This document shows, piece after piece, positions 23,265 through 46,955 of a stretch of 46,955 bases of DNA. Made by a program: the position numbers and the translations under genes. Position 1 is the stretch's first letter. Every line of letters begins with the position of its first letter. The notes beneath the pieces are model-generated. The model was not told the DNA's origin, did not search any database, and saw nothing but the letters and a program-made list of their open reading frames with translations. The stretch comes from Halolamina pelagica. GTDB lineage: Archaea; Halobacteriota; Halobacteria; Halobacteriales; Haloferacaceae. The stretch spans positions 1-46,955 of the forward strand of contig NZ_FOXI01000018.1 in NCBI RefSeq assembly GCF_900115675.1, in the 5' to 3' direction.

Positions 23265-23338
23265 GCCTGGAGAGCATGGGTGGTTCATGCACTCGACTTG
23301 TAATCGAGACTTCCCGGGTTCGACTCCCGGTCCAGGCT
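23265..23338 (+). tRNA. tRNA-Thr (anticodon UGU)
   Basis: Acceptor GCCTGGA/TCCAGGC, anticodon arm CTCGA-CTTGTAA-TCGAG with TGT at 34-36, and T-arm CCGGG-TTCGACT-CCCGG all pair; the discriminator is T and CCA is not encoded. The gene is intact, and everything on its 3' side changes to mobile-element content, so its 3' half is the likely integration target. Confidence 0.97.
23312..23338 (+). other. Candidate left attachment site in the tRNA-Thr 3' end
   Basis: Integrated archaeal elements commonly recombine in the T-arm and acceptor part of a tRNA gene and restore it. The element genes start 66 bases after this tRNA, and a tyrosine recombinase gene lies inside. The matching copy is not present before position 46955, so the core length cannot be measured. 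Confidence 0.45.
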
Positions 23339-23361
23339 CTCTACTGCTTGTTCAAAGCTGT

Positions 23362-32355: not shown

Positions 32356-32396
32356 CTTGCTTATCGCCCTTCTGTGCTGACCGTTACGTACTTCCC

Positions 32397-32412
32397 CTGT
32401 ACTTAGCGAAGG
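32397..32412 (+). repeat. 16-base direct repeat, right copy
   Basis: CTGTACTTAGCGAAGG, matching 28879-28894 with two mismatches, same orientation. Confidence 0.5.
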
Positions 32413-32453
32413 CACTCATATCATCCCGGTAGGCTCTCACCATCCAATCGGAA

Positions 32454-32490
32454 GTGAAACAGCCGCTAAGTTGGATTGCGTATTGGCCAC
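32454..32490 (+). repeat. Diverged intergenic repeat, copy C
   Basis: GTGAAACAGCCGCTAAGT, then TGGATTGCGTATTGGCCAC and AGATTCTACC. It shares its 5' part with copy B and its 3' part with copy A, so all three derive from one sequence of about 45-50 bases. Confidence 0.6.
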
Positions 32491-32697
32491 CAGAGATTCT
32501 ACCAGTTCAAAGAGTTGTTTCAGTGGTCATACAATGATCCAACGCGCGTCTACAGCACAACCACGTCGGTTGTCTCGGCGTGAATCAAGCAATACTCGTC
32601 GGTCGTCAAACTGTTCTGCTGAAAGCCACAATGGGTTGCAATTTCATCCAGCAATTCAACAGAGTGGACGCCATCCAGAAGTCGCGGTTACTTCTTT

Positions 32698-33429: not shown

Positions 33430-33559
33430 ACGGCTCTACAGTAGTGTTCAAGCGCGAATTTGAATAGCATTCGGGTGTGTAGCGATTTCAGTAATTCTGC
33501 CTCTGGGTCGAGCCCGCATCGAGAAATGACCATGACTGAGCTATGGCTCTCAGATACGG

Positions 33560-34216
33560 CTAGAATGGAAGAAATTGAATGCCGAACAGGTATTTCGACA
33601 CAATGTCGAGCCCAAATAGCGTAAACAAGCTTGCCGAGACGTATCGCACCCATTTCGTGTTTATGTAGGCTGAACTGCGTGAGAAAAACAGCGCTGTCAC
33701 AAAGCTCACTGGAATGATTGCGAGCATCTCTCCGAACCAAATTGCCGGATGCGCACCGTACTGGACCGCAAGGCCGATGGTGATCAGTTGTGTTTTGTCG
33801 CCGAATTCGCCGAATACCATCAGCGAAAACGAAGGGAAAAAGCCAGCAAAGCGAGATGGGACGACATCAGTTGCCTCATCGACAACCTCCGGACTACCAT
33901 CCGTCAACAGTTGCTCGTCATCCGTGTCTTCCTCAAAATCTAGTTGTGACGTGTAGAGAATCCACGCACCGAAGACGAAAAACAACGCCGCGGTGAGGCC
34001 GTCGAGGAACACTTCGGGGAGTGCTCCTTTCAGCGCATTTCCAAGCAGGATTTCCAGCACTGTCCAGCCACCGAATGCAGTTGCTGCGCCGGCCACGACC
34101 ATGTATGGGTTGTACTTCGTAGCGAGCGCAGCGATCACGATCTGCCCCTTCTCACCGGGAAGTGCGAGAAGTTGGAGTACAAATGCACTAATTAAGATAT
34201 CAAGCCAACCAACCAT
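33560..34216 (-). CDS. GDT1/TMEM165 (UPF0016) family cation transporter
   Basis: 218 residues with six or seven hydrophobic segments. The family has two E-x-G-D-(K/R)-(T/S) motifs, one per three-helix half. The second is intact (VFGEFGDKTQLITIGLA, about residues 135-151). The first is degenerate (LALPGEKGQIVIAALA near 17-32, with the acidic residues shifted). The halves are joined by an acidic loop FEEDTDDEQLL. Relatives carry Mn2+ or Ca2+ in exchange for protons. 130 bases separate it from the ATP-grasp gene on the same strand. Confidence 0.82.
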   Translation of the reverse strand: MVGWLDILISAFVLQLLALPGEKGQIVIAALATKYNPYMVVAGAATAFGGWTVLEILLGNALKGALPEVFLDGLTAALFFVFGAWILYTSQLDFEEDTDDEQLLTDGSPEVVDEATDVVPSRFAGFFPSFSLMVFGEFGDKTQLITIGLAVQYGAHPAIWFGEMLAIIPVSFVTALFFSRSSAYINTKWVRYVSASLFTLFGLDIVSKYLFGIQFLPF

Positions 34217-34237: not shown

Positions 34238-35824
34238 CTAATATGAGTTCGGACACCAAACAATAGAGCCGCTATTCTCTACTCGAAAGCCACGAGTCGA
34301 TTCGTCCGGGTCGACGCCCGGGAGGCTGTAGCGGTCGGGCATCTGCCGGATCGGGAAGCGATCGGAGAAGCTGGCCCGGAGTTTCGCCACGTCTGGCGGT
34401 AGCGTCTCCGTCCGGGCGCGGACGGCCGTCACCTCTCGATTACCGTCGGGCGCCCGGATCGTGAACTCGTGTTCGACGAGTGTGTTCGGAACGAGTTCGT
34501 CGTAGCACTCGGCGACAAGATCGGGGTCGTAGCCTATCCCCACGTACCGGAGCCCCATCCAGACGTGCCGTCGATCGTGCTCGACGACACGCTGGGCCAG
34601 GACCTCCTTCGGGAGCATCCCATCCTCGGAGTCGAGCACTTCGTTCACGAGTTGGTCCATCACCTGTGGCTTCTCCATGTTCTCGCGCCAGCCGGCGAAG
34701 TTCAGGATGTAGCGATCCAGACACCAGGCGTAGCGCTCCTCGATCGCCGGCGACGGGTGGTAGCCGTAGGCGCGTTCGAGCGCTCGCGTCGCGAGCGTGT
34801 CGATCAGTTCTTCGCGATCCGTCGACGCGTAGGTGCGACCGGCGAGAAAGCCCATGTGGCAGGTCATTCCCTCGGCGTCGACGGTCTTTACCAACACCGC
34901 GATCTCCTCCCACGTCTCGCCGCCGCGGTCCTGCCGGAGACTCCGCAGGCGGCGCTGGCGGAGCCACTGGTCGCCCCGGTAGACGCCGACGCCGACGAGC
35001 AGCGCGCCGGCCAGCAGTGAGGGATAGAGCCACCACTGGACCCAGAACCGAACGAGGATGAGCTCGAGGACGAACACGATCCCCGCCGGCACCAGCAGCT
35101 TCCAGATCACGTCGTCCGTCCGGAGGCCGGTCGCGAGGTCCATCCGCCACAGCTTGAACCTCTCGGCGTTGCTGGGCGCGTCCTCGTCCGCTTCCGGCTC
35201 CGGCTCGGCCTCGCTGTCGGTCGCCCGCTCGGGGAGGTTCATCGCGCCGGGTTCGGTCGCCGCCGGTTCGTCGACGACCTCCTCCGACGGGTCGGCTTCT
35301 TCGTCGAAGGAGATCCGGTCGTCGTTACCGTTGAACGCCTGCCGGATGCGCTCGCGAGCGCTCGCGCTGTCGTCGTCGCCGAAGATAATCGCCCGGTTCG
35401 TCCCGTCGGTCGTGCGGATCTCGTCGGCCATCCGCCCGACCGTCTGTGGCTTGTGCCCCGTCTCACGGGCGGCCTTCACGATCCGGGCCTTGCGGATGCC
35501 CCAGATCGACCCGCGGCCGAAGACGATCGCCGCGAAGACGTAGCCCCAGCCCGACGTAGCCCACTCCAGCACCGCCGAGAGCAACGGCGCGCTGGAGGCC
35601 GATACCTCGACCTCGGCTTGGGTCATGTAGAAGACGCCCGCGCCGGCGACGGCGGCCAGCGCGAACACCACGACCAGCAGCGCCTTCGACGCCGGCGACG
35701 CCGTCCGGATACCCGTCACCGTGTTCCAGAGCTTCTTCGGAAGGCGGAACGGGAACAGGACGCTCCGGAGGAGCAGCTTGAGGAGGCCTTTCAGAAACGC
35801 CACCGCACTCGTGAGCAGACCCAT
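34238..35824 (-). CDS. Multi-span membrane protein of the element's envelope operon
   Basis: 528 residues. A basic amphipathic N-terminus, then hydrophobic segments at about 44-66 and 80-102, an acidic cytoplasmic stretch with EPEPEADED (about 150-225), and a helical pair at about 240-290 (LLVPAGIVFVLELILV, LYPSLLAGALLVGVGVY). The C-terminal 230 residues form a soluble domain containing ERYAWCLDRYILNFAGWRENM and a Trp/Cys-containing end. Unrecognised. Its ATG overlaps the upstream stop (ATGA), so it is co-translated. Size and topology suggest a scaffold or channel part of the assembly. It is the last gene before the AT-rich cargo patch. Confidence 0.75.
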   Translation of the reverse strand: MGLLTSAVAFLKGLLKLLLRSVLFPFRLPKKLWNTVTGIRTASPASKALLVVVFALAAVAGAGVFYMTQAEVEVSASSAPLLSAVLEWATSGWGYVFAAIVFGRGSIWGIRKARIVKAARETGHKPQTVGRMADEIRTTDGTNRAIIFGDDDSASARERIRQAFNGNDDRISFDEEADPSEEVVDEPAATEPGAMNLPERATDSEAEPEPEADEDAPSNAERFKLWRMDLATGLRTDDVIWKLLVPAGIVFVLELILVRFWVQWWLYPSLLAGALLVGVGVYRGDQWLRQRRLRSLRQDRGGETWEEIAVLVKTVDAEGMTCHMGFLAGRTYASTDREELIDTLATRALERAYGYHPSPAIEERYAWCLDRYILNFAGWRENMEKPQVMDQLVNEVLDSEDGMLPKEVLAQRVVEHDRRHVWMGLRYVGIGYDPDLVAECYDELVPNTLVEHEFTIRAPDGNREVTAVRARTETLPPDVAKLRASFSDRFPIRQMPDRYSLPGVDPDESTRGFRVENSGSIVWCPNSY

Positions 35825-37098
35825 CAGTCATCCCCTCCGGTGCCGGCGTTGCCCGGCCCGAACATCATCTGGTCTTCCTCTTCGACATCCTGGATCAGCT
35901 GGGCCACGTCGTCACGGGCGTCCCGATACAGGTGGCCGAGGTTGTGTTTCGTCTCCATGTGTTCGAGGGTGGCCTTGATCTCGCCGAGTGCCTGCTTCGC
36001 CGTCGGAATACGGTTCGAACGCAGGACGGGTTCGAGCCAGGAGTCCTCCAGCGAGTCTGTGTCGAGGTCCTCAACGCCACCGTGGACCTGTTCGAGGCCG
36101 TCATCGGTCTGTCGGTGGGCGCCGAAGGCGGCCATCCGGGCGAGTTGGCCGGCGCTGCGGACGCCGTGGCCATCACGCCAGTACACCGCGTTCGAGCCGA
36201 CCGCCGGCACCTCCTCAAGCGGCACCTCGTCGGCGGTCTGTTTCTGTTCCTCGTAGGCGAGCTCGAGCTCGCGACGCTTTCGTTCGGCACGCCCCACGTC
36301 GTTCTGCAGGGCCTCGAGCAGCCCACCCCAGCGCTTCTGGATCCACTTCGCGACCAGGGCGATCAGGCCCAGCAGCAGCAACCAGAACAGCCAGTTCATC
36401 GACGCCGCGATCGCGAGGGCCATCAGTTGCGCGGCGGACTTCGTGAGGAAGCCGTCGATCAGATCCGCGCGTTCGTTCACCCACGAGAGGTAGGCCTCCA
36501 ACTCCTCAGGCGAGGTCCCGTAGCCGTGCTGCTCGGCGACCTCACGGAGTTCCTCCAGCACCGGGGCGTACTCCTGCAGCTCCGACGCGCCGACGGAGAC
36601 GCCCGTCTGGCGGGCATAGAGTTCGACCTCTTTCGTCGAGCCGTCCGTGAAGAACAGTTCGAGCGTGTAGAGGCTGGTCTCGCCCGGCGGCGCGGCGTCA
36701 TCGGCGTAGGTGACCTTCACCTGCGTCCCGCCCGCGAACACCTGCGCCTCCGCGGGCTGCTGGCTGATCCGGGCGGCCTCGACCTCCCGGGAGAGCGTGA
36801 ACAGCGCGAACGGACCGGTAGTTTCGAACACCGAGTCCGACTCGCGAACGCTCACCGCGAGGAACGGTTCGTCGAACTTCTCCGGCGTGATCCGGACCTG
36901 TGAGGCTGCAGTCGGGTTCGTCGAGCCGTTCGTGTCCGTCGGCGTGGTCGTCGTGTTGTTCGCGGTCGGTGTCGCCGTCGGCGCCGGCGTCGGTGTGGCC
37001 GTCTGTTGTTGGGCGACCGGATCGGCGACGGCGGCGCCGACAGGGGCCACCGCCATCGAGAGTACCATGACGACGGCGAGGAGAAGGTGTCGACGCAT
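35824..37098 (-). CDS. Secreted-N-terminus, single-span protein with cytoplasmic coiled coil
   Basis: 424 residues. Signal peptide (about 1-25, hydrophobic then AVADPVAQQ), a Thr/Pro/Asn-rich linker (TPTPAPTATPTANNTTTT-like, about 33-60), an extracellular domain with TPEKFDEPFLAVSVRESDSVFETTGPFALF, then a membrane span around 228-248 (LALAIAASMNWLFWLLLLGLIALV) and a long charged cytoplasmic part with a coiled coil (about 250-290) and LEHMETKHNLGHLYRDARDD. The mixed layout suits a linker between the outside and a cytoplasmic ATPase. Start overlaps the upstream 82-residue gene by one base. No family known. Confidence 0.75.
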   Translation of the reverse strand: MRRHLLLAVVMVLSMAVAPVGAAVADPVAQQQTATPTPAPTATPTANNTTTTPTDTNGSTNPTAASQVRITPEKFDEPFLAVSVRESDSVFETTGPFALFTLSREVEAARISQQPAEAQVFAGGTQVKVTYADDAAPPGETSLYTLELFFTDGSTKEVELYARQTGVSVGASELQEYAPVLEELREVAEQHGYGTSPEELEAYLSWVNERADLIDGFLTKSAAQLMALAIAASMNWLFWLLLLGLIALVAKWIQKRWGGLLEALQNDVGRAERKRRELELAYEEQKQTADEVPLEEVPAVGSNAVYWRDGHGVRSAGQLARMAAFGAHRQTDDGLEQVHGGVEDLDTDSLEDSWLEPVLRSNRIPTAKQALGEIKATLEHMETKHNLGHLYRDARDDVAQLIQDVEEEDQMMFGPGNAGTGGDD

Positions 37099-37346
37099 CA
37101 GTTCACCACCTCCGCCACTCGCGGCTCAACGATTGCTGCCATCAGGCCGAGCAGCATCAGTACCCCATAGAGCCAGTGGAACGTCATTGTCTGAGGCCAA
37201 AATACAGAATTGTAGATTGCGAAGAGAGACAGCGGTTCGTACACCCCGATTACCTCATAGAGCGTGAAGAACGCCAGTGCGGTCACCGTGTAGAACACGG
37301 CGATGAACCGCAGTACTCGCCGCCGCGATGGAAGCGAGAACTCCAT
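37098..37346 (-). CDS. Small two-helix membrane protein
   Basis: 82 residues. A basic N-terminus (PSRRRVLRF) then two hydrophobic helices (FIAVFYTVTALAFFTLYEVIG; MTFHWLYGVLMLLGLMAAIVE). TGATG overlaps at both ends show coupling to both neighbours. The middle part (SLFAIYNSVFWPQ) is AT-richer in codons than the neighbours. No function can be assigned. Confidence 0.7.
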   Translation of the reverse strand: MEFSLPSRRRVLRFIAVFYTVTALAFFTLYEVIGVYEPLSLFAIYNSVFWPQTMTFHWLYGVLMLLGLMAAIVEPRVAEVVN

Positions 37347-38362
37347 CAGCGATCCACCTCGGCGCCGTTCTGCGCGACTTCACGCTGGTCTTTCGGGAGG
37401 CGCTGGGCCGCCCGCTCGTTGCGGATCTCGACGTTCTTCTGGCCAGTTGGGAGTTGTGTCAGAATGTCCATGATCTCCTCGCGGGCTTCGTCGCGAGAGC
37501 GGATGTCCTGGGTTTCGAGGCGACGCTGCAGTTCGCGGAGCTGCGTCTGCGTCTCGCCCAGGATCGCGTCTTTCGTGTCGAGTCGACTCTCCAGCTTCTC
37601 CATCTTCTCGCGCTGCTGGAGGTAGGACTCGTAGGGCAGTTCGATTGGCGTTCGGTAGCGGTAGTCCGCGGCGTTCGAGACGCCGTTCGTGACGATCCGC
37701 TCCTGTGTTTTGACCAGGTACTCGTTTTCCTTCACACGGATCGCGTGATCGGGGATCTCGTGGGCGACGATGTCGCTCAGAATCCCGCGCTCGGCCCGGA
37801 GTTCCCGGTCGTGGGCGACCAGCTTCCGCCGGCCAAACAGGCCGACGATCCGCGTTGGGAAGTGCTCGTAGATCACGAGGTTGCCGTCCTTGTTTGTCGT
37901 CGTCTCCGAGGGGTCGAAGTACACCGTCTCCGTCCCATCCTCGTTGGAGTCGTCGTCCTCGTAGATCACCTTCAGCTTCCCGCGCTGGGCGTCCTTCTTT
38001 CCGCGGTAGGCGACGCCGCCGCCGATCGCGACGGTGGCGATCCCCGCGGCTTCGAGGTAGTTGGCGTAGGGCACCTCCACGGGCGCGCCGTTCTTCAGCG
38101 AGAAGTACGCGAACACGCCGGTCGCGAGCACGAGCAGGCCCAGCGAGATCGCCAGCACCTTCGCTGGCAACGTCAGCGTCTTGTGTTTCTTCAGCAGTGA
38201 GACGCTGTAGTCGCCCTCGCGACGGGCTTCTTGCTTCACCCGGTCGGTCCCGCTCTCGGGGTTCTCCCGATCGTCACCGAAGACGTTCCAGCGGTCGAGC
38301 GCACCGAGGATCAGCAGCACGATCACGACGGCGATGACGCCGACGAGGAGGACGTTCACCAT
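37346..38362 (-). CDS. Membrane protein with soluble domain and C-terminal coiled coil
   Basis: 338 residues. Hydrophobic segments: N-terminal 1-22 and a pair at about 66-105 (VLAISLGLLVLATGVFAYF, then AAGIATVAIGGGVAY). A soluble domain follows (KLKVIYEDDDSNEDGTETVYF, IVGLFGRRKLVAHDREL), then a coiled coil from about 240 to 300 (LQQREKMEKLESRLDTKDAI, QLRELQRRLETQ). The coiled coil could dock with that of the 424-residue protein downstream. Not recognised. Neighbours overlap, so it is part of the same coupled block. Confidence 0.75.
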   Translation of the reverse strand: MVNVLLVGVIAVVIVLLILGALDRWNVFGDDRENPESGTDRVKQEARREGDYSVSLLKKHKTLTLPAKVLAISLGLLVLATGVFAYFSLKNGAPVEVPYANYLEAAGIATVAIGGGVAYRGKKDAQRGKLKVIYEDDDSNEDGTETVYFDPSETTTNKDGNLVIYEHFPTRIVGLFGRRKLVAHDRELRAERGILSDIVAHEIPDHAIRVKENEYLVKTQERIVTNGVSNAADYRYRTPIELPYESYLQQREKMEKLESRLDTKDAILGETQTQLRELQRRLETQDIRSRDEAREEIMDILTQLPTGQKNVEIRNERAAQRLPKDQREVAQNGAEVDR

Positions 38363-38956
38363 CTAGCGGCCCTCCTGGGTTGCCTCGGCCTCAACGCGGG
38401 CGCCCTCGTCGGCCTCGCCGGTGAACCCGATCGTTACGTCACTCTCTTCGAGCAGGTCGAGGCCGCGTTCCTGGAGTGACTGATACTGCTCGACGTGGTC
38501 CGACAGCGCGCTGGTGATCTGGTGGCAGCCGACTTCCTCGGCGTAGCGTCGGTAGGCCCGGCGCTTGTCACTCGTGTCGGCGTCGGCGTGTTCGAGTTGG
38601 AGTTGTTCACGGCGGCGCCGTTCCACCGGGTCGACGAACACCGGGCAGCGAGTCCCGTAGTGGGGGCAGCCCTCACAGGAGTCGGGGAAGTTGCCCGTTC
38701 CGTCGCCGTCGACGCGGCGCATCGCAAACTCGCCCATGCCCTCCTCGTCGTCGGGCTTCTCACGGACCGTGCTGAGGTGGTGATCGACGATGTCCAGGAC
38801 GTCGCCGCCGGGGAGCTCGCTCACGTCGCGGAGCCACTGGTAGATGCGACCCTTCAGGCCCCGGTCGTTGACGAACTGGACTTCTTCACGGAGTTCTGCA
38901 GACAGCCACGAGATGCTGTCGGGGCGGTACTGTCGCTGGTCGGTCGTAGGTTGCAT
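38363..38956 (-). CDS. Four-cysteine soluble protein of the envelope operon
   Basis: 197 residues without a membrane span. CEGCPHYGTRCP (about 95-106) plus a later Cys in EEVGCHQI give four cysteines in a C-x2-C-x6-C-x(~45)-C pattern. This could hold a zinc ion or, as in Cas4 and some primases, a [4Fe-4S] cluster. The remainder is helical and acidic. It is the only clearly soluble, cysteine-rich protein in this run besides the AbrB-like protein. Unrecognised. Confidence 0.65.
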   Translation of the reverse strand: MQPTTDQRQYRPDSISWLSAELREEVQFVNDRGLKGRIYQWLRDVSELPGGDVLDIVDHHLSTVREKPDDEEGMGEFAMRRVDGDGTGNFPDSCEGCPHYGTRCPVFVDPVERRRREQLQLEHADADTSDKRRAYRRYAEEVGCHQITSALSDHVEQYQSLQERGLDLLEESDVTIGFTGEADEGARVEAEATQEGR

Positions 38957-38971
38957 GATGAATCAGGTCGG

Positions 38972-39172
38972 TTACTCGTCGAGGACCGGCGCGAGGTCCT
39001 CCATCGTCGGCGCCACGTTGGGGTCGATCAGAAGCAGTCCGACACCGCTTATCGCCCGCACCTCGAAGTCGTCGCCGGGGTTGAACACGCAGCCCTCGCT
39101 CACCTCGTGCGGGATGTAGAACTGGATCTGGCCAACCCCGACCTCGGTTACCGTGTGGGTCGCCCGGCACAT
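38972..39172 (-). CDS. AbrB/SpoVT-like swapped-hairpin protein
   Basis: 66 residues. TEVGVGQIQFYIPHEVSEGCVFNPGDDFEV and the following strand GVGLLLIDP fit the pattern of AbrB-like domains (G-Q-hydrophobic-IP-x-E-V, then PGD), about residues 8-50. These act as DNA-binding dimers that control transition states or element maintenance. It is the first gene after the strong terminator at 39226-39251, so it may respond to or override that signal. The starting Met-Cys-Arg is preceded by AAGG. Confidence 0.6.
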   Translation of the reverse strand: MCRATHTVTEVGVGQIQFYIPHEVSEGCVFNPGDDFEVRAISGVGLLLIDPNVAPTMEDLAPVLDE

Positions 39173-39225
39173 CCTTGGGGTAGGGTGCCTGTGTCGGTCG
39201 AACGCGTTACAACGCCAGCGCCATC

Positions 39226-39251
39226 AAAAAAGGCGGGCCGTGAGGCCCGCC
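39226..39251 (-). terminator. Strong intrinsic terminator in the middle of the envelope gene run
   Basis: On the minus strand GGCGGGCC-TCAC-GGCCCGCC, an 8-bp all-GC stem with a 4-base loop, is followed immediately by TTTTTT. It lies 16 bases after the end of the 93-residue membrane-protein gene and before the AbrB-like gene, on the same strand. Rho-independent-like hairpins of this quality are unusual in archaea. Confidence 0.75.
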
Positions 39252-39266
39252 GCGTGGTGTGTCGGG

Positions 39267-39548
39267 TCATCCGGCGATCTTCTTCCGGAGACTGGTGTTT
39301 TGATCGAGGTTCTTTGCGTGGGTGCTCCCAAGAAACACGGCGACGACGATGATGAGGCCGCCGAGGATGACGAGCGGCCATGCGCCCGTCATCAGGAGGA
39401 ACACGCCGATCAGCAGCGTCGACGCGTTTCGGATGAGGCCGAAGCTCGCGACGGCCACGTCGCCGCCGCTGGAGAACCTCGCAAACAGCCACAGGCCGAT
39501 CGCGATCGAGAGTAGGAGCGCGGTCGCGACCGTGATGAGCTCGGCCAT
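39267..39548 (-). CDS. Small three-span membrane protein
   Basis: 93 residues with hydrophobic segments at about 4-24, 43-58 and 60-75, then a polar, basic tail (NLDQNTSLRKKIAG). The start follows the previous stop directly. Small and of unknown function; it resembles the neighbouring 81-residue protein in design and may form part of the same membrane complex. Confidence 0.7.
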   Translation of the reverse strand: MAELITVATALLLSIAIGLWLFARFSSGGDVAVASFGLIRNASTLLIGVFLLMTGAWPLVILGGLIIVVAVFLGSTHAKNLDQNTSLRKKIAG

Positions 39549-39794
39549 CTACTTTCGCCCCCAGTCCTTGTCGTCCTTGCCCCCGTTGAGCGTGCTGTTC
39601 ACGTCGAAGCGGCCCGCCTTCTTCCCCACGTTCTGCTGTTCGTACAGCCGGAAGCCATACCGGCCACCGTAGAACAGGAACAGGATCGCCGCCGCGATCG
39701 CCGCGGCGACGAGGAACCCGCTCATCACGGTCAGTGCCGGGATGAACGCGAGGACGGCGAGGCCCCAAGCTACTCGTTCGAAGTTGCTAGTCAT
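39549..39794 (-). CDS. Small two-span membrane protein
   Basis: 81 residues. An almost continuous hydrophobic stretch (about 8-42: VAWGLAVLAFIPALTVM, then FLVAAAIAAAILFLFYGG) is followed by a polar C-terminus with KKAGRFDVNSTLNGGK. This size and polarity resemble small major membrane components of archaeal virions and pili, but no sequence match is known to me. It is translated just upstream of the 93-residue protein and 9 bases after the 296-residue secreted protein. Confidence 0.65.
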   Translation of the reverse strand: MTSNFERVAWGLAVLAFIPALTVMSGFLVAAAIAAAILFLFYGGRYGFRLYEQQNVGKKAGRFDVNSTLNGGKDDKDWGRK

Positions 39795-39803
39795 GGGTGT
39801 GGA

Positions 39804-40694
39804 TCAGTCGAAGAGTCCGTCCAGGAAGTCGTCGATCACGTCGGTGCCAGCATTCCACGACTCCCACTGGTGCTGCATCTCGTCCCACCGCGTCGGTCGC
39901 GCGGTGAACCGTACCTTCGCATCCGGGTCGTTGAACACGAACTGGACTCGGTAGTCGTCGACCTGCCGGTAGAACACGGGTGCCTGCGAGTCGGTCGACA
40001 CCGGCCGCCAGCTCGAGGCATTACTCGTCCGGTACATCGCCTGCCACTCCTCAACGACCTTTCCGGTCGACTCGTTCTGCAGGGAGATCGTGACCGTCTC
40101 GGTGGTGTTCGTCGCCGAGAAGCGGTAGGTTCGCTTCTCGAGATCCTCCTCCTCGTCGCCGATCGAGAAGTTCGAGATCGACTCCCACAACGAACTCCCG
40201 GTGTCTTTCACTTCGCCCGTCCAGGAGAGGCTCTTCACGCGCACCGTCGAGGGCGCGAACGTGACCGTCTCACCGGGGCCGAGCGTAAACACGACCTGCG
40301 TGTAGGTCTCGTCATGCTCAAAGTCGTGAACCGCGTGCCAGCCAGCCGTTCGGTTCCCGTCGGTACTCTCGACATCGCCGAGTTCGGCCGGCGAGACGAT
40401 CGCCGGCGCAATGTTCACCCGGAACTCGACGCAGTAGCCGTTCGGGTTACTGGCGTTGATGCGGAGGAAGCCGGTGGCCTGCTCGACGCGGACCTCCGTG
40501 TTCTGGGCCGTGACGGTGGCCGAGTCGTTGGTCGCGGCGTCGACAGTCGCGTTGTCGAACCGGAAGGCGTCGTACGTGACGCGCGTCGAGCAGTCCGACT
40601 GTGTCGACGCCGTCGCCGGTACGGCAGCCAGTGTGGGGGCGACCGCCGCGACGAGTAGGACCGCCACGAGCACGCCCACGCGTGGTCGGAGCAT
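39804..40694 (-). CDS. Secreted, sequon-rich surface protein
   Basis: 296 residues from ATG 40694, which overlaps the upstream stop (TGATG). The frame runs further upstream, but that part lies in another gene. Signal peptide 1-29 (LVAVLLVAAVAPTLAAV, cleaved near ATAS). The mature part is beta-rich, with eight N-x-S/T sites and two cysteines that could form a disulfide. The last third contains VDDYRVQFVFNDPDAKVRF. No C-terminal anchor is seen. Together with the 340-residue protein at 42984-44006 it is a candidate exposed structural protein. Not recognised. Confidence 0.7.
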   Translation of the reverse strand: MLRPRVGVLVAVLLVAAVAPTLAAVPATASTQSDCSTRVTYDAFRFDNATVDAATNDSATVTAQNTEVRVEQATGFLRINASNPNGYCVEFRVNIAPAIVSPAELGDVESTDGNRTAGWHAVHDFEHDETYTQVVFTLGPGETVTFAPSTVRVKSLSWTGEVKDTGSSLWESISNFSIGDEEEDLEKRTYRFSATNTTETVTISLQNESTGKVVEEWQAMYRTSNASSWRPVSTDSQAPVFYRQVDDYRVQFVFNDPDAKVRFTARPTRWDEMQHQWESWNAGTDVIDDFLDGLFD

Positions 40695-40999
40695 CAGCGG
40701 AACTTCCCCCCTCGGTCTTCGAGCTCCTCGTAGGCCTGTTCGCCCGCCTCGCCGCTGTAGAGTTCGTACGCCTTCTCCCGGATCGTGTTCATCGGGAGGA
40801 CGACGTAGAGCATCTGTGCCAGTAGGACGCTGGCGAGTAGCGCAACAGCGATCGCGTCGGCGGCGAAGGAGAGCGCCACCGCGACCAGGAACACGCCAAT
40901 GAAGATCAGCCGCGATCCCCATCGGAACGCACTGCGGACAGTCATGTCCTCCCGACTCGGGAGGTCGACTGACCGGAGGCGGCGACGAACGTCAGTCAC
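40694..40999 (-). CDS. Small membrane protein
   Basis: 101 residues from GTG 40999, overlapping the upstream stop by eight bases; an ATG at 40945 would give 83 residues. Two close hydrophobic segments (FIGVFLVAVALSFAADAIAVALLASVLLAQMLYVVL) lie between a basic N-terminus (RRRLRS) and a charged C-terminus (YELYSGEAGEQAYEELEDRG). No recognised domain. Coupled on both sides. Confidence 0.65.
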   Translation of the reverse strand: MTDVRRRLRSVDLPSREDMTVRSAFRWGSRLIFIGVFLVAVALSFAADAIAVALLASVLLAQMLYVVLPMNTIREKAYELYSGEAGEQAYEELEDRGGKFR

Positions 41000-41537
41000 G
41001 CTTCCACCTCGGCAGGTCGTAGTCGTTCTTGATCGAGAGTGCCGCGATCCATTCCCCGTACTCATCGTTCACAGCCGGGATCAGCCGGGCAATGCCGATG
41101 CTGCCGAGAGCGATCACGATGACGACCGTCCCGATCAGCGCGCCACCGGTGAGGAAGCTGGCCAGCAGCGCGAACCCGATGACCGAGATCGCGGCGCCGA
41201 TCTGTTGCCACGGCGTCGCTCCGCGGATGCCCAGCAGCTTCGGGATGGTCTCGATCGTCCACTGGATCATGTCCCGGATGCTCGGCGGGAGCAACTCGTC
41301 GAAGGTGAGGTAGTCCCAGGCCCGGCCGAGGTTTCGGCGGGTGCCGGACACCTGCCGACGGAGGAAGCCACCCGCCCGGCGGGTTCCGGTGCCGAGCATC
41401 CGGGCGCCGTTGGCGAGGGTTCCGGCGCCGCTCTTGATCGAGCGCCAGGCGGTTCGGAGTCGGCCTTCGTTGGCCTTCTTCGCGGCCTCGGCGTGGCGCT
41501 TGCTGTCGCCGTACCAGCCGCGTCCTTTGTCACTCAT
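40992..41537 (-). CDS. Basic-N-terminus membrane protein
   Basis: 181 residues from ATG 41537, overlapping the upstream stop (ATGA). The first 75 residues are strikingly basic for a haloarchaeon (KRHAEAAKKANEGRLRTAWRS, TGTRRAGGFLRRQVSGTRRN), so they could bind DNA or phospholipid. A long hydrophobic pair at about 115-155 follows, then an amphipathic tail. This mixture would suit a DNA-contacting membrane protein that brings the element's genome to the envelope (inference). Not recognised. Confidence 0.7.
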   Translation of the reverse strand: MSDKGRGWYGDSKRHAEAAKKANEGRLRTAWRSIKSGAGTLANGARMLGTGTRRAGGFLRRQVSGTRRNLGRAWDYLTFDELLPPSIRDMIQWTIETIPKLLGIRGATPWQQIGAAISVIGFALLASFLTGGALIGTVVIVIALGSIGIARLIPAVNDEYGEWIAALSIKNDYDLPRWKRD

Positions 41538-42166
41538 GCTTCCTCCGTGGTGTTCCACATCGACGACTCCGGCGCGCCGTACTTCGCAAGGTAGGCGGCC
41601 TTGTCACCCGTCGAGAGGTCCTCATTCGGTTCGGCGTGTTCGTCGACGAACGTCTCGAGCTCGTCGCCAGCCGCGCGGGACTGGTACCAGTCGAGTGAGA
41701 CCCACTGGTCGGCCGTCCGGTTGGTCGCGTCGAACTCCGACGGCGTCAGCACGCGAGCGTTCGTCCACGAGCCGTTTTCCACGTCCGAAACGACGTAGCG
41801 CGTGACGTTGCCGTCCTCGCGATCGTGGAAGTGAACCGCGAACACGTCGTGGTTGGTGTCAGCCGTCAGCCGCTCGCTCGCGAAGGCTTCGAGGCTCTGG
41901 TTGTGTTCGTTGAACGTGGTCGAAAAGTCCGCCGCGTAGGTGGTAGCGTTGGCCTCGTCGCCGAGGTAGGCGGCGTAGGTCCGGGAGGCGCCGCTGGTCG
42001 CGCCGGCAATCCAGATGCCGGCCTCCTCGAGGATGCCCTGGTCATCGTCGTCGGCGATCAGCCCGTCGAAGAAGGCACCGTCGTCGGACTGGGCGGCGAC
42101 GCCCATCGAGCCGGCGCCGATCGCTGCCGTGACGACCAGCAGCGCGACGAACAGGCGGCGGATCAT
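41534..42166 (-). CDS. Secreted protein of unknown function
   Basis: 210 residues from ATG 42166, overlapping the miniprotein stop (ATGA); earlier in-frame starts belong to another gene. The signal peptide is 1-25 (RRLFVALLVVTAAIGAG, cleavage near VAAQ). The mature protein is acidic with a few sequons (NAT, NRT, NVT) and no C-terminal anchor. Positioned between a zinc miniprotein and a membrane protein in a coupled block. Confidence 0.65.
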   Translation of the reverse strand: MIRRLFVALLVVTAAIGAGSMGVAAQSDDGAFFDGLIADDDDQGILEEAGIWIAGATSGASRTYAAYLGDEANATTYAADFSTTFNEHNQSLEAFASERLTADTNHDVFAVHFHDREDGNVTRYVVSDVENGSWTNARVLTPSEFDATNRTADQWVSLDWYQSRAAGDELETFVDEHAEPNEDLSTGDKAAYLAKYGAPESSMWNTTEEA

Positions 42167-42306
42167 GTCACGATCGCCTCCGTGAACAGCGCCCCACACG
42201 ACGGGCACTCGAACCGCGGGCCGCGCTGGGTCGGCGTTGGGGCGACTGCGTCGCTGCAGTCGTGGTCTGTGGCCGGTGCTCGGAGTCGGTCAGCAAGCTG
42301 GAGCAT
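42163..42306 (-). CDS. 47-residue zinc-knuckle miniprotein
   Basis: A small gene from ATG 42306 to the TGA ending at 42163. The product has H-D-C in TDHDCSD and CPSCG in RFECPSCGALF, with two or three Cys and a His able to bind one zinc. GAGGTGAA stands directly before the start. Its stop overlaps the next start (ATGA). Together these make translation likely. Confidence 0.65.
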   Translation of the reverse strand: MLQLADRLRAPATDHDCSDAVAPTPTQRGPRFECPSCGALFTEAIVT

Positions 42307-42318
42307 CTGTTCACCTCA

Positions 42319-42360
42319 AGCTCACCGACGGAGTCGAACCGTCGCGAGGCCGATGTGAGC
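42319..42360 (-). other. tRNA-like T-arm/acceptor minihelix
   Basis: On the minus strand, a canonical T-arm (GACGG-TTCGACT-CCGTC, 5-bp stem, 7-base loop) is followed directly by GGTGAGC plus a discriminator-like T. Six of these seven bases pair with GCTCAC at 42360-42355. No D-arm or anticodon arm fits. It occupies the short gap between the four-span membrane-protein gene and the zinc miniprotein gene. Confidence 0.5.
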
Positions 42361-42382
42361 GAGTCGCAGGAACGAGTCGGAG

Positions 42383-42871
42383 CTACCGCGCCCAACGGGC
42401 CGCAACCAGACAGCCAACGTAGAGACCGGGGAGGAATATCGAAGCGATAGCCCACTCTCCGATTAGGGTAAACGGGTCAAGGGGGACGTCAGCGTAGACG
42501 TATTGCCATGCGATCAACGACGTGGACAGAGAGACGTTCAGGGCGAAAAACATCGCCGAGCCCTTGCCGAATCGGTGGAAGATATCCGTCGTCTCGGCCG
42601 GAAGATACGTGTACACAAGGGCGACGACCAGCGCAGGGAGCGTCAGAACACCGAGGAAGAGCATCCCCTCAGTCGACATGCTCGCCGCCTCCTCCGCGCC
42701 GTTTGCGCTCCACATCTCACCACCCTGCAGGTAGGCGAGGAACATGAGCCACGTGAGCTGGCCGACTGTTCCACAGAACAGGAACTTCCCCGCCACAGAG
42801 ACGGGGTACGGAAGCGGATTCGGGATGCGTTCTACGGTGCTTCGCAGTCGGGTGGATGCTGTGGTGGACAT
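42383..42871 (-). CDS. Four-span membrane protein
   Basis: 162 residues from ATG 42871 (an upstream start at 42910 would add 13 residues). Four hydrophobic segments: about 30-50, 68-88, 100-122 and 138-160. The sequence RIPNPLPYPVSVAGKFLFCGT begins the first. No active-site pattern. It sits just upstream of the tRNA-like structure and ends with ARWAR, TAG. Confidence 0.65.
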   Translation of the reverse strand: MSTTASTRLRSTVERIPNPLPYPVSVAGKFLFCGTVGQLTWLMFLAYLQGGEMWSANGAEEAASMSTEGMLFLGVLTLPALVVALVYTYLPAETTDIFHRFGKGSAMFFALNVSLSTSLIAWQYVYADVPLDPFTLIGEWAIASIFLPGLYVGCLVAARWAR

Positions 42872-42983
42872 CTGAGGACCCGCTGCCGGGCTCGACCGGC
42901 GGTGCGGCATGGCTACCGAAGCGGGTCAGCGTCGGGTAGGGGATTTTGACTGTCAGAAAGCGGTGCGCGATGGAGCAGCGGCG

Positions 42984-44006
42984 TTACTCGTCGCTGTCCT
43001 CCCAGTCCGGCTCGGTGAAGTCGGCGTTCCAGATCGCCGTCCCGTACGCACTCGACCAGGTGGCGTCGTAGTTTGTCAGCATCGACGCCGTGTTCGTGAG
43101 CCCGAGGCCGTCGTTGCCGGTCGCCGAGATCTCGAGGTCCTGCGCATCGTCGGCAGTGAGTTCGTCGACGTTGTGGTAGGTCAGCGTCTGGGCGTCCTCG
43201 TCGTAGGTCGCGTAGGGCTGGCTGTCGTTGAACCAGTCCGTGTCCGGCGCTTCGCTGTTCGCGACCACGACGTACTCATCGTCGAGCGAGGTGGCGGAGC
43301 TCCAGATCACGTCGCCGCTCTCGGTGTTCTCCGCGGCCGTGCTGAACGCCTCAGCCATCGGCGTCCCGGCGACGCTCAGGGTGACCGTCTCGGTCTCGTT
43401 GCCGGTGACCCCGATCGTCGCATCGGTCTTCGCCGGGTCGGTCGCGTTGTCGCTCCAGAACGCCAGTGAGGCGACGCTGAAGGTGCCGCTGTCGCTCGGC
43501 GTCTGCACACTCGTCTCATCCACGTCCTCGAACGCTTCGACGTTGCCGTTCGCGAACGTGTAGGAGATGTTGGTGGTGTCGGGGTTCGACACCTCGGTGT
43601 TGTTGATCAGCGTGACGTTGAGGGTCACCGATTCGCCAGCGTTGGCGTCGAGACCGCTGTAGTCGGCGCCGTCATCCGCCACGCTGACGTTGAAGTACCA
43701 GGTGTCGAGACTCCCGCTGGAGTCCGTGTCGGCTGCACTGTAGTTCGAGGGGGATGCCGCATACAGCGTGTCGCCGTCCTGGGAGATCTCGATCTTCGAG
43801 TGCTCGGAGTCGGCCGACCACGCGATCAGAGAGGTAGTCGACTGGTTGTACGCCTGTGTGCCGCCGTCGTTGAGCTCCGTCGTCGTCGAGGTGTTGGTCG
43901 TCTCGGTGTCGACCGTCGGCGCCGCTGCGAGGGCACCGCCGGCCGCTGCGACCAGCATGATCGCGACGAGCAGGACGCTCTTCGTCGTTGTGGTGAAGTT
44001 GAACAT
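42984..44006 (-). CDS. Major secreted sequon-rich protein (candidate structural/surface protein)
   Basis: 340 residues. The signal peptide is about 1-28 (KSVLLVAIMLVAAAGGALAA). The mature protein is highly acidic, beta-strand-like, rich in Thr, Ser, Asp and Asn, with no cysteines and about ten N-x-S/T sequons (NTS, NQS, NYS, NVS, NVT, NNT, NIS, NAT, NET, NDS). No C-terminal membrane anchor or PGF-type sorting signal is visible. This composition resembles haloarchaeal surface or spike proteins in general, but not any family I recognise. It is likely to be an abundant external protein of the element. Confidence 0.75.
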   Translation of the reverse strand: MFNFTTTTKSVLLVAIMLVAAAGGALAAAPTVDTETTNTSTTTELNDGGTQAYNQSTTSLIAWSADSEHSKIEISQDGDTLYAASPSNYSAADTDSSGSLDTWYFNVSVADDGADYSGLDANAGESVTLNVTLINNTEVSNPDTTNISYTFANGNVEAFEDVDETSVQTPSDSGTFSVASLAFWSDNATDPAKTDATIGVTGNETETVTLSVAGTPMAEAFSTAAENTESGDVIWSSATSLDDEYVVVANSEAPDTDWFNDSQPYATYDEDAQTLTYHNVDELTADDAQDLEISATGNDGLGLTNTASMLTNYDATWSSAYGTAIWNADFTEPDWEDSDE

Positions 44007-44106
44007 CGAAGGAAAGGTCAGGTCATTTTGGGGACGATACCGGGGAGAGTCGGCGGCGGGGCGGGCGGTGGCCGGTCGCGATCCGCCCGTGCGTGCATCT
44101 GGTGCA

Positions 44107-44811
44107 TCATTGGTCTGAGAGACTGCCTACGTCACCGACACCGACCGACATCATCGCGTCGACCAGCGTGGCATTGATCGAGAACCCAGCCGTCCCACGG
44201 CGCCACCAGTCCGGCCGCGATCGCATCGTCCACGGGTTGGTGACCGACCCCGGCGCGAGTGACTCTTCCAGCCCGTTATCCAGCCAGCTGTCGAAGACGG
44301 TCGTCAGGTCGTCCACGTCGAAGAACTCGCCGGGCTGGCCGGCTGCTGTGTACTGGTGCCAGGGCTTGATCACGCGGAGCTGTGGGTGCGTGTCGTCGAC
44401 GAGTGGGATCTCCGCTCCGGGCGCCCGGCCGGCGATCCAATGGTAGATCGACGCGATCACTTGGGTGACCCCATCGTCGTCGAAGAACACGTACACCGGC
44501 TCGTGGTCGCCGTAGTGGCTGTCGAGATTCCCCAGCCAGCCCTCCTGGTGGGAGTAACTCGCCCAGTACACGGCGACGTTGGTCTCTCGCTCCTCCGACC
44601 GGGTGACCCAGCCGTACAGGCCGATGAACTTCTCCTCGGCAGCGGCGGGCATCACCAGCTCCGGCCGGTAGCGCTCGAGCACGGACTCGTCGTACTCCAG
44701 CGTAACGTCGTCTGGTTTAGCGTCGAAGTGTTCCGCGAGCGCACTCGCTGAGAACACGGTGCTACCGACGGCCACCGCGCCGGCTGCCTGCAGATACTCT
44801 CGTCGGCGCAT
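44107..44811 (-). CDS. Tat-exported protein of unknown function
   Basis: 234 residues. The start RRREYLQAAGAVAVGSTVFSA matches the twin-arginine signal pattern, so it is exported folded. A mature domain of about 205 residues follows, with LYGWVTRSEERETNVAVYWASYSHQEGW, DSHYGDHEPVYVFFDDDG and VIASIYHWIAGR. The aromatic, acidic and His-rich pattern could bind metal, but I cannot assign a family. It starts two bases before the end of the subtilase gene, so they are closely linked. Confidence 0.7.
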   Translation of the reverse strand: MRRREYLQAAGAVAVGSTVFSASALAEHFDAKPDDVTLEYDESVLERYRPELVMPAAAEEKFIGLYGWVTRSEERETNVAVYWASYSHQEGWLGNLDSHYGDHEPVYVFFDDDGVTQVIASIYHWIAGRAPGAEIPLVDDTHPQLRVIKPWHQYTAAGQPGEFFDVDDLTTVFDSWLDNGLEESLAPGSVTNPWTMRSRPDWWRRGTAGFSINATLVDAMMSVGVGDVGSLSDQ

Positions 44812-44813
44812 GA

Positions 44814-46412
44814 TCAGCCCCCCGCAGCAGAGGCGACCCGGGCAAGGAATCCGCCCGCCGCCTCGGCGGCGGCCTCGTAGTACGTCTGGCGCTGCTGGGC
44901 GGGATCAGTCATCGCCTCGGACTGGCTCGTCTCGGGATGCGTGCCGCTTGCGAGGTTCGTCGCGTTGAACATCCCGTGGCCGGCCTCCGCAGTCGCGAGA
45001 TGCGGCGCGGGCGAGGCGCTGTTCGTGACCGCATCATGGACTTCCGCTGGCGAGGCCTCGGCCAGTGAGTCACCGTCACTGAAGCTCGAGACCGTGTCGT
45101 TGGCCGCCATCGCCTGGGCGATTCCACCGGCGACGATCGGCGTCGCCATCGACGTGCCCGACAGCGACGTGTTCGTGAGACTGCCGCCGGTCGTCGGTGT
45201 CCGGGCGACGATCTGCATCCCCGGCGCGACAACGTCGATCGGCTCGGCGTTCGTCACGTTGCCGTCGGCTGCCTGAGAGCCGGCGTACTGGCTGAAGTAC
45301 GCACTCCACGCTTCCTGCGGTCCGGAGCCGTTCGTCGCCCCGACCGTGATCACGCCGGCCACGTCAGCCGGCGTTGCGACGCCCGGCGATCGTGTCTGCC
45401 GGGAGTTCCCCGCGGCGACGACGACCACCGAGCCGGCGTCTTGGGCGTACGTGACGGCATCGACCACGGGCTCGGAGCGGAGTTTCGCGCCCAGGCTCAG
45501 GCTGATCACGTCCGCATCCTGATCGGCCGCGTAGCGGATCGCATCCGCGATGTTTGCGGTGGAGCCGCCGCCATCATCCGCCAGTGCTTTCACGACGAGC
45601 AGCTGGGAGTCGGGTGCAACACCGTCGTGGACGGTGCCCGAGGCGTTGGCCGCGATGCTGGCGGCCGTCCAGGTGCCGTGCCCGTTCCCGTCCTCGATCG
45701 CGTCCCAGCCAGCGTCGGCAACCGTCTCGTTCGTCATGACGTTCTTCGAGGCGTTGCTGATCCGGATCGGCGAGCCGACCGAGCCGTTGCCGAACACGCG
45801 CCCGTCGGCCGTGTTCGCGCCCGTGTCGACGACCGCGACCGTCTGGCCCGACGAATCTGCCGAGATATCGCCGACAGACTCGCGTGCTTCGGCCATCGTC
45901 GTCCGGTTCGCGTCCTCGGAGAAGGCGACACCGTTTGTCGGGTATGCCGGATCGTCGAACTCGAGCAGCCCGACCTGTGGCGTGCTCCAGCTGTCGCCGG
46001 ACTCGAGGATCACCGGCTCGGTGTAGCTGAGTTGGTAGTTGATCGCGACATCCTCGATGTAACTGCGGCTCTGCAGTTGCTCACCGGTGAGGAAGAACTC
46101 GACGGAGCCGCCATCGAGGCGGAACAACCCACCCATGACGTGCAAGTGCGGGGCGGCGACCGTGGCCGTCTTCGACGCGTTGTCCAGTTCGATGAGTTCG
46201 CGACTCTCAGCACCACGAACCCAGTCACGAAGAGAGTCCGCGCTGTCGTTCTCGAACTCAACGATGAACGACGGCCGCAGCTCGCCATCGGTGGCGTACT
46301 GGACGATCGGGGCGTCCTCTCCGTCTGTGAGCGATTGTGCGCCGACCGGGGCGGCGACCGCACTAGTCAGGAGCGTTGCGACTACCAGGAGTGTGCGAAG
46401 TTTGCGGAGCAT
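44814..46412 (-). CDS. Subtilisin-like (S8) serine protease
   Basis: 532 residues. Sec signal peptide (1-25), a propeptide-like region to about 180, then the catalytic domain with D196 in AVVDTGAN, H245 in GNGHGTWTA, the oxyanion Asn N336 in VVVAAGNS and S421 in LSGTSMATP. All are intact, so it should be active outside the cell. No C-terminal transmembrane span; the chain ends in an Ala/Gly-rich tail. Sitting inside a run of envelope proteins rather than alone, it may process a structural or prepilin-like partner, or help escape through the S-layer (inference). Confidence 0.9.
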   Translation of the reverse strand: MLRKLRTLLVVATLLTSAVAAPVGAQSLTDGEDAPIVQYATDGELRPSFIVEFENDSADSLRDWVRGAESRELIELDNASKTATVAAPHLHVMGGLFRLDGGSVEFFLTGEQLQSRSYIEDVAINYQLSYTEPVILESGDSWSTPQVGLLEFDDPAYPTNGVAFSEDANRTTMAEARESVGDISADSSGQTVAVVDTGANTADGRVFGNGSVGSPIRISNASKNVMTNETVADAGWDAIEDGNGHGTWTAASIAANASGTVHDGVAPDSQLLVVKALADDGGGSTANIADAIRYAADQDADVISLSLGAKLRSEPVVDAVTYAQDAGSVVVVAAGNSRQTRSPGVATPADVAGVITVGATNGSGPQEAWSAYFSQYAGSQAADGNVTNAEPIDVVAPGMQIVARTPTTGGSLTNTSLSGTSMATPIVAGGIAQAMAANDTVSSFSDGDSLAEASPAEVHDAVTNSASPAPHLATAEAGHGMFNATNLASGTHPETSQSEAMTDPAQQRQTYYEAAAEAAGGFLARVASAAGG

Positions 46413-46418
46413 GGGTGA

Positions 46419-46955
46419 TCACCTCAGGGTTCGCCGCCGGCGGGCAAGGACAAGCAACGCCCCGCCGACCAGCGGTGACGAGGCCATCCCGAAGCCGAAC
46501 GACGGGATGGAGATATCCGGCACCGAGGTGGACACCCACCAGTCCACTCGTTCGAGGATCCCCGGATCGTAGACGACTTCGACGCCGACATCGCCATCGG
46601 TCGTCGTGTACGTCTTGATCACCGTCTTGTTCGCCGAGTGCGTGATTCCCCCGATGCTGGCGTTGGCAGTGATCGGCTGGCTGCCCTCGTCTGTGACTCG
46701 GTAGACCAGTGTGTCCTCGGGCAGCGGCGGCAGGTGGAGTTCAACCGCCTGATGCCCACTGACGGCCTGGCGCTGCTCGCCTTGAACCATCCCGAGCCGA
46801 TAGGTCGTCGACGTGGTGTCACTCGCCTCCCCGTAGTACCGCACTTTCGACGGCGTCTCCTGGCCATCCTCGAGGACCGCCAGCATCGACACCGACCGAC
46901 CACCGGCCGAGCTGGTCGTCTCGGCATTCTTCAGCCCGTCTGCGATCGTCAGATC
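46419..46955 (-). CDS. C-terminal part of a secreted, membrane-anchored protein (partial)
   Basis: The frame is open to the right edge, so at least 178 residues and an unseen N-terminus. The visible part is a beta-rich extracellular segment containing ITANASIGGITHSANKTVI and YTTTDGDVGVEVVY, then a hydrophobic stretch and a basic end (LVGGALLVLARRRRTLR), the layout of a type I anchored surface protein. It ends 7 bases before the subtilase start and would be co-transcribed. The first in-frame GTG at 46892 is not taken as the start because coding continues upstream. Confidence 0.6.
   Translation of the reverse strand, partial: DLTIADGLKNAETTSSAGGRSVSMLAVLEDGQETPSKVRYYGEASDTTSTTYRLGMVQGEQRQAVSGHQAVELHLPPLPEDTLVYRVTDEGSQPITANASIGGITHSANKTVIKTYTTTDGDVGVEVVYDPGILERVDWWVSTSVPDISIPSFGFGMASSPLVGGALLVLARRRRTLR

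Follow-up and report, generated by a model that had tools for sequence, protein, structure and literature searches.

Which system is encoded by the long run of genes for envelope proteins on the minus strand of a Halolamina pelagica contig (positions 34238-46955)? In order to answer this question, we analyzed the whole contig C35 (46,955 bp; hereafter the window), which belongs to a 3.16-Mb draft genome of 37 contigs. A first-pass annotation had regarded the run, together with a HerA/FtsK-type ATPase gene at 29332-31686, as a possibly undescribed DNA-export or particle-forming module, and had proposed the vesicle plasmid pR1SE and the pleolipoviruses as the nearest known concepts. As described below, the block is very probably the core of an integrated pR1SE-type vesicle plasmid in Halolamina, i.e. 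a type I element of the apHPV family. The open reading frame (ORF) numbers of pR1SE used here were assigned from gene order, and they agree with the ORFs named in PMC10818511.

The envelope-gene block

The tightly packed run proposed earlier is real. Seventeen genes, rather than about 18, were counted in it, mostly with overlapping or touching ends: among the 16 intergenic distances, 15 do not exceed 112 nucleotides (nt) and the remaining one is 216 nt, and most neighbours overlap or lie within about 15 nt of each other. The GC content at third codon positions (GC3) is 0.76-0.89, and no frame contains an inner stop. A signal peptide and/or hydrophobic helices are present in about 15 of the 17 proteins, the soluble-looking exceptions being ORF21 (38363-38956) and a protein of 66 amino acids (aa; 38972-39172). 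The Tat-exported protein and the subtilase noticed previously correspond to ORF8 (44107-44811) and ORF7 (Pfam S8), respectively. Sequon-rich secreted proteins are present as well, but four were found where two had been claimed, namely ORF7 (12 sequons observed vs 3.8 expected), ORF9 (11 vs 6.0), the protein at 41534-42166 (6 vs 1.6) and ORF17 (8 vs 2.6); in the same count, no sequons were found in ORF21, ORF22 or ORF24. Contig C35 ends at the right edge of the window, and the break falls within ORF6. The gene order is shared by eight plasmid records or loci and by 12 genome loci, and the block is therefore more than a chance arrangement.

Similarity to pR1SE and assignment to the apHPV family

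A tblastn search with the 338-aa protein encoded at 37346-38362 matched nine haloarchaeal plasmids, including NZ_KX687704, which is the vesicle plasmid pR1SE. When all genes were compared with pR1SE and six other plasmids using tblastn and hidden Markov models, colinear homology was observed for the C-terminal part of ORF6 and for ORF7, 8, 9, 17, 18, 19 and 21-25, so that the pR1SE lead was borne out; the C-terminus of ORF6 is matched in four or more other elements, though not in pR1SE itself. The window has the order 8-17-21-22-23-24-25, as do the type I loci examined, with edge-cut loci and fragment matches excepted. As anticipated, the ATPase at 29332-31686 is part of the same module, although three cargo genes lie in between.

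The apHPV family consists of cluster 1 (ORF6-9), a variable region and cluster 2 (ORF17, 21, 23-25), and an element is counted as complete when it has at least five of six marker proteins (PMC10818511). All six markers (ORF6, 8, 17, 21, 23 and 24) are present in the window element, ORF6 only as its C-terminal part owing to the contig end, and its complete order is 6-7-8-9-variable-17-18-19-20-21-22-23-24-25. A subtilisin-like S8 peptidase occupies the ORF7 position, and the place of the HerA/VirB4-like ATPase is taken by a protein 39% identical to pR1SE ORF25. A replication protein (MCM or Orc1/Cdc6), which is common but not universal in the family, would be supplied by an Orc1/Cdc6 gene on contig C31, if the link between the two contigs described below holds.

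In pR1SE, the plasmid DNA travels in vesicles that hold plasmid-encoded core proteins, and recipients turn into producers (PMC10818511, PMC10384203); pR1SE-encoded proteins are present in the infectious plasmid vesicles (PMC10818511). By analogy, the window element would form vesicles as well. Vesicle proteins are glycosylated, and the vesicle titre falls without aglB (PMC10384203); the sequon enrichment in the secreted proteins of the window is consistent with both observations. The window element is an additional member of a known family: the idea of a membrane-vesicle plasmid with a HerA/FtsK-type motor stands, and the label "undescribed" is wrong, because the family has already been published as apHPVs (PMC10818511).

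Integration at a tRNA-Thr gene

The chromosomes of all six congeners can be aligned with the window as far as 23338-23341, i.e. the 3' end of tRNA-Thr(TGT), where the match stops; the right flank of the congeners was located in the H. pelagica genome at C31:13586 onward. The stretch C31:1-13357 is colinear with the element of Halolamina rubra CBA1107 upstream of its ORF6, and it carries an intact 405-aa integrase (12067-13284; 94% identical to that of H. rubra) and Orc1/Cdc6 (5800-6861; Pfam Cdc6_lid, 2.1e-8). The window and the C31 stretch each contain a single copy of GGTCCAGGCTCT, the core of the attachment (att) sites, at 23329-23340 and 13346-13357, respectively. We infer from the att sites and the colinearity that the element spans from attL (window position 23329) to attR on C31. 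The known parts sum to 36,984 bp and part of ORF6 is missing, so that the integrated element measures at least 37 kb. ORF6 was found nowhere else in the assembly, in agreement with a repeat-caused assembly break at the end of C35.

The homologous H. rubra element is located in tRNA-Thr(CGT), a second tRNA-Thr site. Taken together, these findings show that the element brings an integrase of its own and that the 3' ends of tRNA-Thr genes serve as its target sites. Insertion at tRNA genes is not mentioned in the main text of PMC10818511, where the function of the apHPV integrases is left undecided. Just after tRNA-Thr in the congeners L059, L061 and L062, the 3' end of this gene is present in one or two additional copies within about 300 bp, which were probably left behind when elements integrated here in the past.

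Several points weigh against the reading as an integrated vesicle plasmid. ORF6 is truncated by the contig end; C35 and C31 are linked by att sites and colinearity, not by continuous assembly, and the att core has only 12 bp. The models of ORF22 and ORF24 are of low confidence and lack a significant fold match. Vesicle formation by the element is deduced from its likeness to pR1SE, and even for pR1SE the roles of clusters 1 and 2 are still hypotheses. Moreover, since the cargo genes at 31897-34216 (deaminase-like, ATP-grasp-like and Gdt1) split ORF24 from ORF25, this copy could be altered; in relatives, these genes are absent from that position.

The cargo and the chromosomal location would also fit a decayed, inactive remnant that makes no vesicles and is kept by drift or for its cargo, the more so as a clearly decayed apHPV sibling is found at C22:281896-290196, with fragments of ORF24 and ORF25 that carry stops and deletions and with a 92% copy of the short recombinase. 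In the window, however, all core frames are open without inner stops, most of cluster 2 retains 92-99% protein identity to H. rubra, and attL and attR are defined in the presence of an intact 405-aa integrase; we consider decay unlikely, although less so than the other alternatives.

A second element in the same genome

The genome contains a second apHPV on contig C24 (L026:5400-18847). Its ORF7 shares 94% and its ORF8 85% identity with the window counterpart; tblastn with window ORF17-24 gave no match in this element. The opposite pattern was observed with H. rubra, in which the variable region and cluster 2 are mostly 91-99% identical to the window in protein (92-99% over most of cluster 2) and ORF7-9 just 35-49%. 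The DNA similarity to both sources switches at about position 43556. Owing to these opposite identity patterns, the window element looks like a chimera with a junction near ORF9.

Two side observations concern these elements. After its cluster 2, the C24 element carries a pasted C-terminal third of a type I ATPase; stand-alone copies of this region, which reads like a winged-helix domain, occur at G052:C52:49170-49610 and G000:C24:20599-21354, and the region has been repeatedly duplicated or exchanged. In addition, two adjacent genes of lower GC3 on C24 (L026:726-3403), with weak PADLOC matches (LmuB, JetC, LeoB; coiled coil), may represent a defence system that this type II element carries.

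A second, re-ordered type of cluster 2

In the C24 element, the genes after cluster 1 encode a secreted protein resembling ORF17, a protein with a Cys motif, a HerA-like ATPase of 785 aa (Pfam DUF87, 2.8e-4, narrowly missing the cut-off) and proteins that resemble ORF22, ORF23 and ORF24. Compared with the window, the proteins are divergent and the order is 17-21-25-22-23-24. We named this arrangement type II. Four plasmids carry the type II ATPase, all four with an S8 peptidase and ORF8 upstream. The general order is 8-17-21-25-[MoxR-VWA in some]-22-23-24. C24 conforms to it, and so do the type II loci with full coverage, the exceptions being L177 and L180, with 22-24 inverted, and L181, in which ORF22 was undetected. 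Five of the 15 type II loci (L171, L175, L177, L178 and L180) lie on chromosome-size contigs of about 3-4 Mb, apparently more commonly than in type I. ATPase-II has two contigs with the same match in IMG/VR, and ATPase-I had no match there.

Profile-profile comparison of the two types yielded probabilities of 97% for ORF17, 94% for ORF22, 95% for ORF23, 92% for ORF24 and 96% for ORF25, the E-values being those of single comparisons of small alignments; for the ORF21 pair, no homology was detected (0.4%). Thus, five of the six protein pairs are homologous, detectably so only by profile comparison. It could be argued that the type II cluster is an unrelated system lying beside cluster 1 and not a functional counterpart, as the ORF21 pair is not detectably homologous, the gene order differs and a MoxR-VWA pair is present in some loci. 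This is highly improbable, given that the five matching pairs fall on the diagonal only, all 30 off-diagonal pairs remaining at 33% or below, and that ATPase-II lies on the same strand and downstream of an ORF8 in 15 of 15 cases (in one only across a presumed contig wrap).

Probable exchange of the two clusters

The survey covered 391 genomes of the class Halobacteria and yielded 50 distinct ORF8 loci, 43 of which could be typed: ATPase-I was found downstream in 28 (two across the presumed circular wrap) and ATPase-II in 15 (one across the wrap), leaving seven with neither. The median distance between ORF8 and the ATPase is 11.7 kb in type I vs 5.1 kb in type II. On 19 type II loci, the type I profiles of ORF17, 21, 22, 23 and 24 scored at most 17.5 bits; the 2023 study applied a cut-off of 50 bits to downloaded genomes and listed 38 "incomplete" elements, 34 of them with cluster 1 only (PMC10818511). 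As the type I profiles miss type II, these cluster-1-only elements may be complete, and judging from the profile scores the simplest reading is that many of the published incomplete apHPVs are type II elements.

On a tree of 42 ORF8 proteins, the type of cluster 2 changes 13 times, with at least nine changes forced by well-supported branches. Trees with shuffled labels gave a mean of 13.5 changes, and 248 of 500 were as low as the real one. The type of cluster 2 is thus random on the ORF8 tree, which means that clusters 1 and 2 behave as exchangeable cassettes. That cluster 1 has no visible memory of its partner argues that both types serve the same job with the same particle cassette. We therefore find it likely that apHPVs are a two-cassette system, in which cluster 1 pairs with either of two anciently diverged and re-ordered DNA-loading machines that have been swapped many times, and in which co-resident elements, such as the two of this genome, generate chimeras. 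What is new within the apHPVs is the type II cassette together with its free exchange, and this is also the most useful outcome of the analysis.

Comparison with known systems

The window shares the subtilase, ORF8, ORF9, ORF17-19, ORF21-24 and ORF25 in the same order with pR1SE of Halorubrum lacusprofundi (KX687704; apHRPV1), at a protein identity of only about 27-40%. It differs in its site-specific integration with its own att sites, in the variable region, in an 82-aa insertion between ORF22 and ORF23, and in the Gdt1/ATP-grasp/deaminase cargo between ORF24 and ORF25. The closest named relative is the H. rubra CBA1107 element (NZ_BBJN01000020.1, contig C52, L157), whose arms and integrase are colinear with those of the window, the left arm with C52:79011-73918; it differs in its tRNA-Thr(CGT) location, its size of about 74 kb and its only 35-49% identical ORF7-ORF9. 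The type II plasmids of Salinigranum rubrum (CP026314), Halomontanus rarus (CP135527), Natrinema pallidum (CP040639) and Natronorubrum daqingense (CP019330) share cluster 1 with the S8 peptidase and ORF8 as well as homologous ORF17 and ORF22-25, but their cluster 2 is re-ordered and divergent, with a MoxR-VWA pair in CP026314, CP135527 and CP040639.

A membrane complex of coiled-coil proteins and the HerA/VirB4/TrwB-like ATPase fold reported for ORF25 homologues (PMC10818511) would also be expected of a conjugation system resembling type IV secretion, which needs cell contact instead of vesicles. In agreement with the first-pass annotation, which had recognised no relaxase or pilin, the core proteins matched no relaxase, VirB/VirD4 or pilin family in Pfam and NCBIfam; moreover, the plasmid homologues are all typed as non-mobilizable and pR1SE transfers without cell contact (PMC10818511), which makes conjugation highly improbable. 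A true virus or provirus of the pleolipovirus kind is very unlikely: tRNA-gene integration, membrane and secreted proteins, a HerA-like motor and the resemblance of the pR1SE lifestyle to chronic infection (PMC10384203) speak for it, but ORF24 and ORF25 had no tblastn match in 50,697 phage records, the core proteins had no PHROG match beyond a generic protease or short stretches, so that homologues of the Pleolipoviridae hallmarks (spike, VP3-like membrane protein, NTPase) did not appear, and order and content equal those of pR1SE. The likeness to pleolipoviruses, i.e. membrane-bound, non-lytic particles, is one of lifestyle, presumed for the window element, with no sequence relationship found.

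Proposed mode of action and structural hints

We propose that the integrase adjoining attR was responsible for the insertion at the 3' end of tRNA-Thr(TGT) and may also mediate excision, with Orc1/Cdc6 supporting replication. By analogy with pR1SE, the secreted and probably N-glycosylated proteins of cluster 1 (ORF6-9) and ORF17 would coat and shape a membrane bud, the subtilase would mature the coat proteins and ORF8 would act on membranes. ORF21-24 would assemble into a membrane complex that has coiled coils and possibly DNA-binding parts on its cytoplasmic side, and ORF25, the motor, would act on this complex to feed plasmid DNA into the bud. The vesicle would then bring the plasmid into another cell. 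The two clusters are separable cassettes: the same kind of cluster 1 occurs with either type of cluster 2. The strong terminator-like hairpin with six T residues at 39232-39251 suggests that the structural and the loading parts are transcribed at different levels.

The conserved HxxDHEP motif of ORF8 resembles the metal site of NLP proteins. An NLP-like fold of ORF8 has been reported (PMC10818511). In AlphaFold2 models, ORF22 and ORF24 reached a mean predicted local distance difference test (pLDDT) score of 62-63 (ORF24, 62), i.e. low confidence. No fold match was found for the ORF22 model in a structure search. For ORF24, winged-helix DNA-binding proteins were frequent near the top of the match list; none was significant, so that they are kept only as a hint that ORF24 may hold DNA at the membrane. 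Pfam, PHROG and NCBIfam searches of the core proteins returned just the subtilase and weak HerA/FtsK signals, and searches of PDB sequences with the ORF8, ORF23 and ORF25 profiles gave nothing significant. Pfam signals below the cut-off (FtsH_ext on ORF22, New_glue on ORF23, Rep_OBD on ORF17) were dismissed.

Features of the window

The coordinates are collected in Table 1. Relatives of the short tyrosine recombinase are also present on C22, on C24 and twice on H. rubra C52. ORF25 has a distant profile match to the HerA-like ATPase-II, and ORF23 has a profile match to its type II counterpart. In ORF9, the N-terminal part is conserved and the C-terminal part divergent. The ORF20-equivalent is conserved among type I elements and, on visual inspection, resembles AbrB (IQFYIP...FxPGDxxxVR); no Pfam or PDB match was found, and this identity was set aside as lacking database support. 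Imperfect tandem repeats were observed in the chromosomal part of the window (1632-2054).

Table 1. Features of the window with their positions, strands and supporting matches (L, locus; C, contig; TM, transmembrane; percentages are identities unless stated otherwise).
Feature	Position	Strand	Evidence or relatives
tRNA-Thr(TGT), integration target	23265-23339	+	ARAGORN, Rfam; congener synteny ends 23338-23341
attL core GGTCCAGGCTCT	23329-23340		matching attR on contig C31:13346-13357
Winged-helix regulator, left arm	24243-24533	+	Pfam HTH_29/TrmB
DUF7845 / PHROG 3288 protein (annotated transcriptional regulator), left arm	25699-27684	+	Pfam 5.6e-82, PHROG 2.2e-102
Short tyrosine recombinase, 203 aa	27989-28600	-	Pfam Phage_integrase 4.5e-14
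ORF25-type ATPase (type I), presumed DNA-loading motor	29332-31686	-	39% to pR1SE ATPase over 3-783
Cargo, cytidine/dCMP deaminase-like	31897-32355	+	Pfam 3.4e-6; relatives without it between ORF24 and ORF25
Cargo, ATP-grasp/RimK-like	32698-33429	-	sequence reading, no Pfam match; absent from reference elements
Cargo, Gdt1 divalent cation/proton antiporter	33560-34216	-	Pfam GDT1 4.8e-34
ORF24, membrane protein with cytoplasmic domains, possible winged helix in C-terminal part	34238-35824	-	32% to pR1SE ORF24, 93% to H. rubra
ORF23, secreted N-terminal domain, TM helix, cytoplasmic helical part	35824-37098	-	40% to pR1SE ORF23
82-aa two-helix membrane protein	37098-37346	-	insertion relative to H. 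rubra; absent from C52
ORF22, two TM helices, beta domain, coiled coil	37346-38362	-	29% to pR1SE ORF22; in all type I loci
ORF21, soluble Cys-motif protein (CxxCxHYGxxCP)	38363-38956	-	30% to pR1SE ORF21
ORF20-equivalent, 66 aa	38972-39172	-	43% to L020
Terminator-like GC hairpin + T6, ORF19-ORF20 gap	39232-39251	-	hairpins or T-runs at the gap in several relatives
ORF19, small membrane protein	39267-39548	-	
ORF18, small membrane protein	39549-39794	-	
ORF17, secreted sequon-rich protein, start approximate	39804-40697	-	37% to pR1SE ORF17
Variable region, small membrane protein, start approximate	40694-41002	-	41% to L020, 91-98% to H. rubra
Variable region, hydrophobic membrane protein, start approximate	40992-41537	-	29-37% to L020-L023
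Variable region, secreted sequon-rich protein, start approximate	41534-42166	-	46% to L020, 32% to own C24
Variable region, membrane protein without relatives found	42383-42871	-	
ORF9, secreted sequon-rich coat-like protein	42984-44006	-	49% to C24 and to H. rubra
ORF8, Tat-exported, conserved HxxDHEP motif (NLP-like)	44107-44811	-	33% to pR1SE ORF8, 85% to C24
ORF7, secreted subtilase (S8)	44814-46412	-	Pfam 3.2e-39; 94% to C24
ORF6 C-terminal part, cut by contig end	46419-46955	-	25-36% to ORF6 of L020, L021, L023, L024, L025, H. rubra

Implications for the apHPV family

The integrated, att-defined element of the window suggests a provirus-like insertion by the element's own integrase, a role that the 2023 survey had left open. 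In the genomes sampled, type II enlarges the apHPV family by roughly half (15 elements beside 28 of type I), and if the two-cassette reading is true, most of the published "incomplete" apHPVs would be complete type II elements. Plasmid vesicles lie between viruses and plasmids, and they raise the question of which proteins form the particle and which load the DNA. Under the same reading, the pair of types would constitute a natural complementation test of which cluster does what, and the two interchangeable types of cluster 2 offer a direct genetic test of the two-module model.

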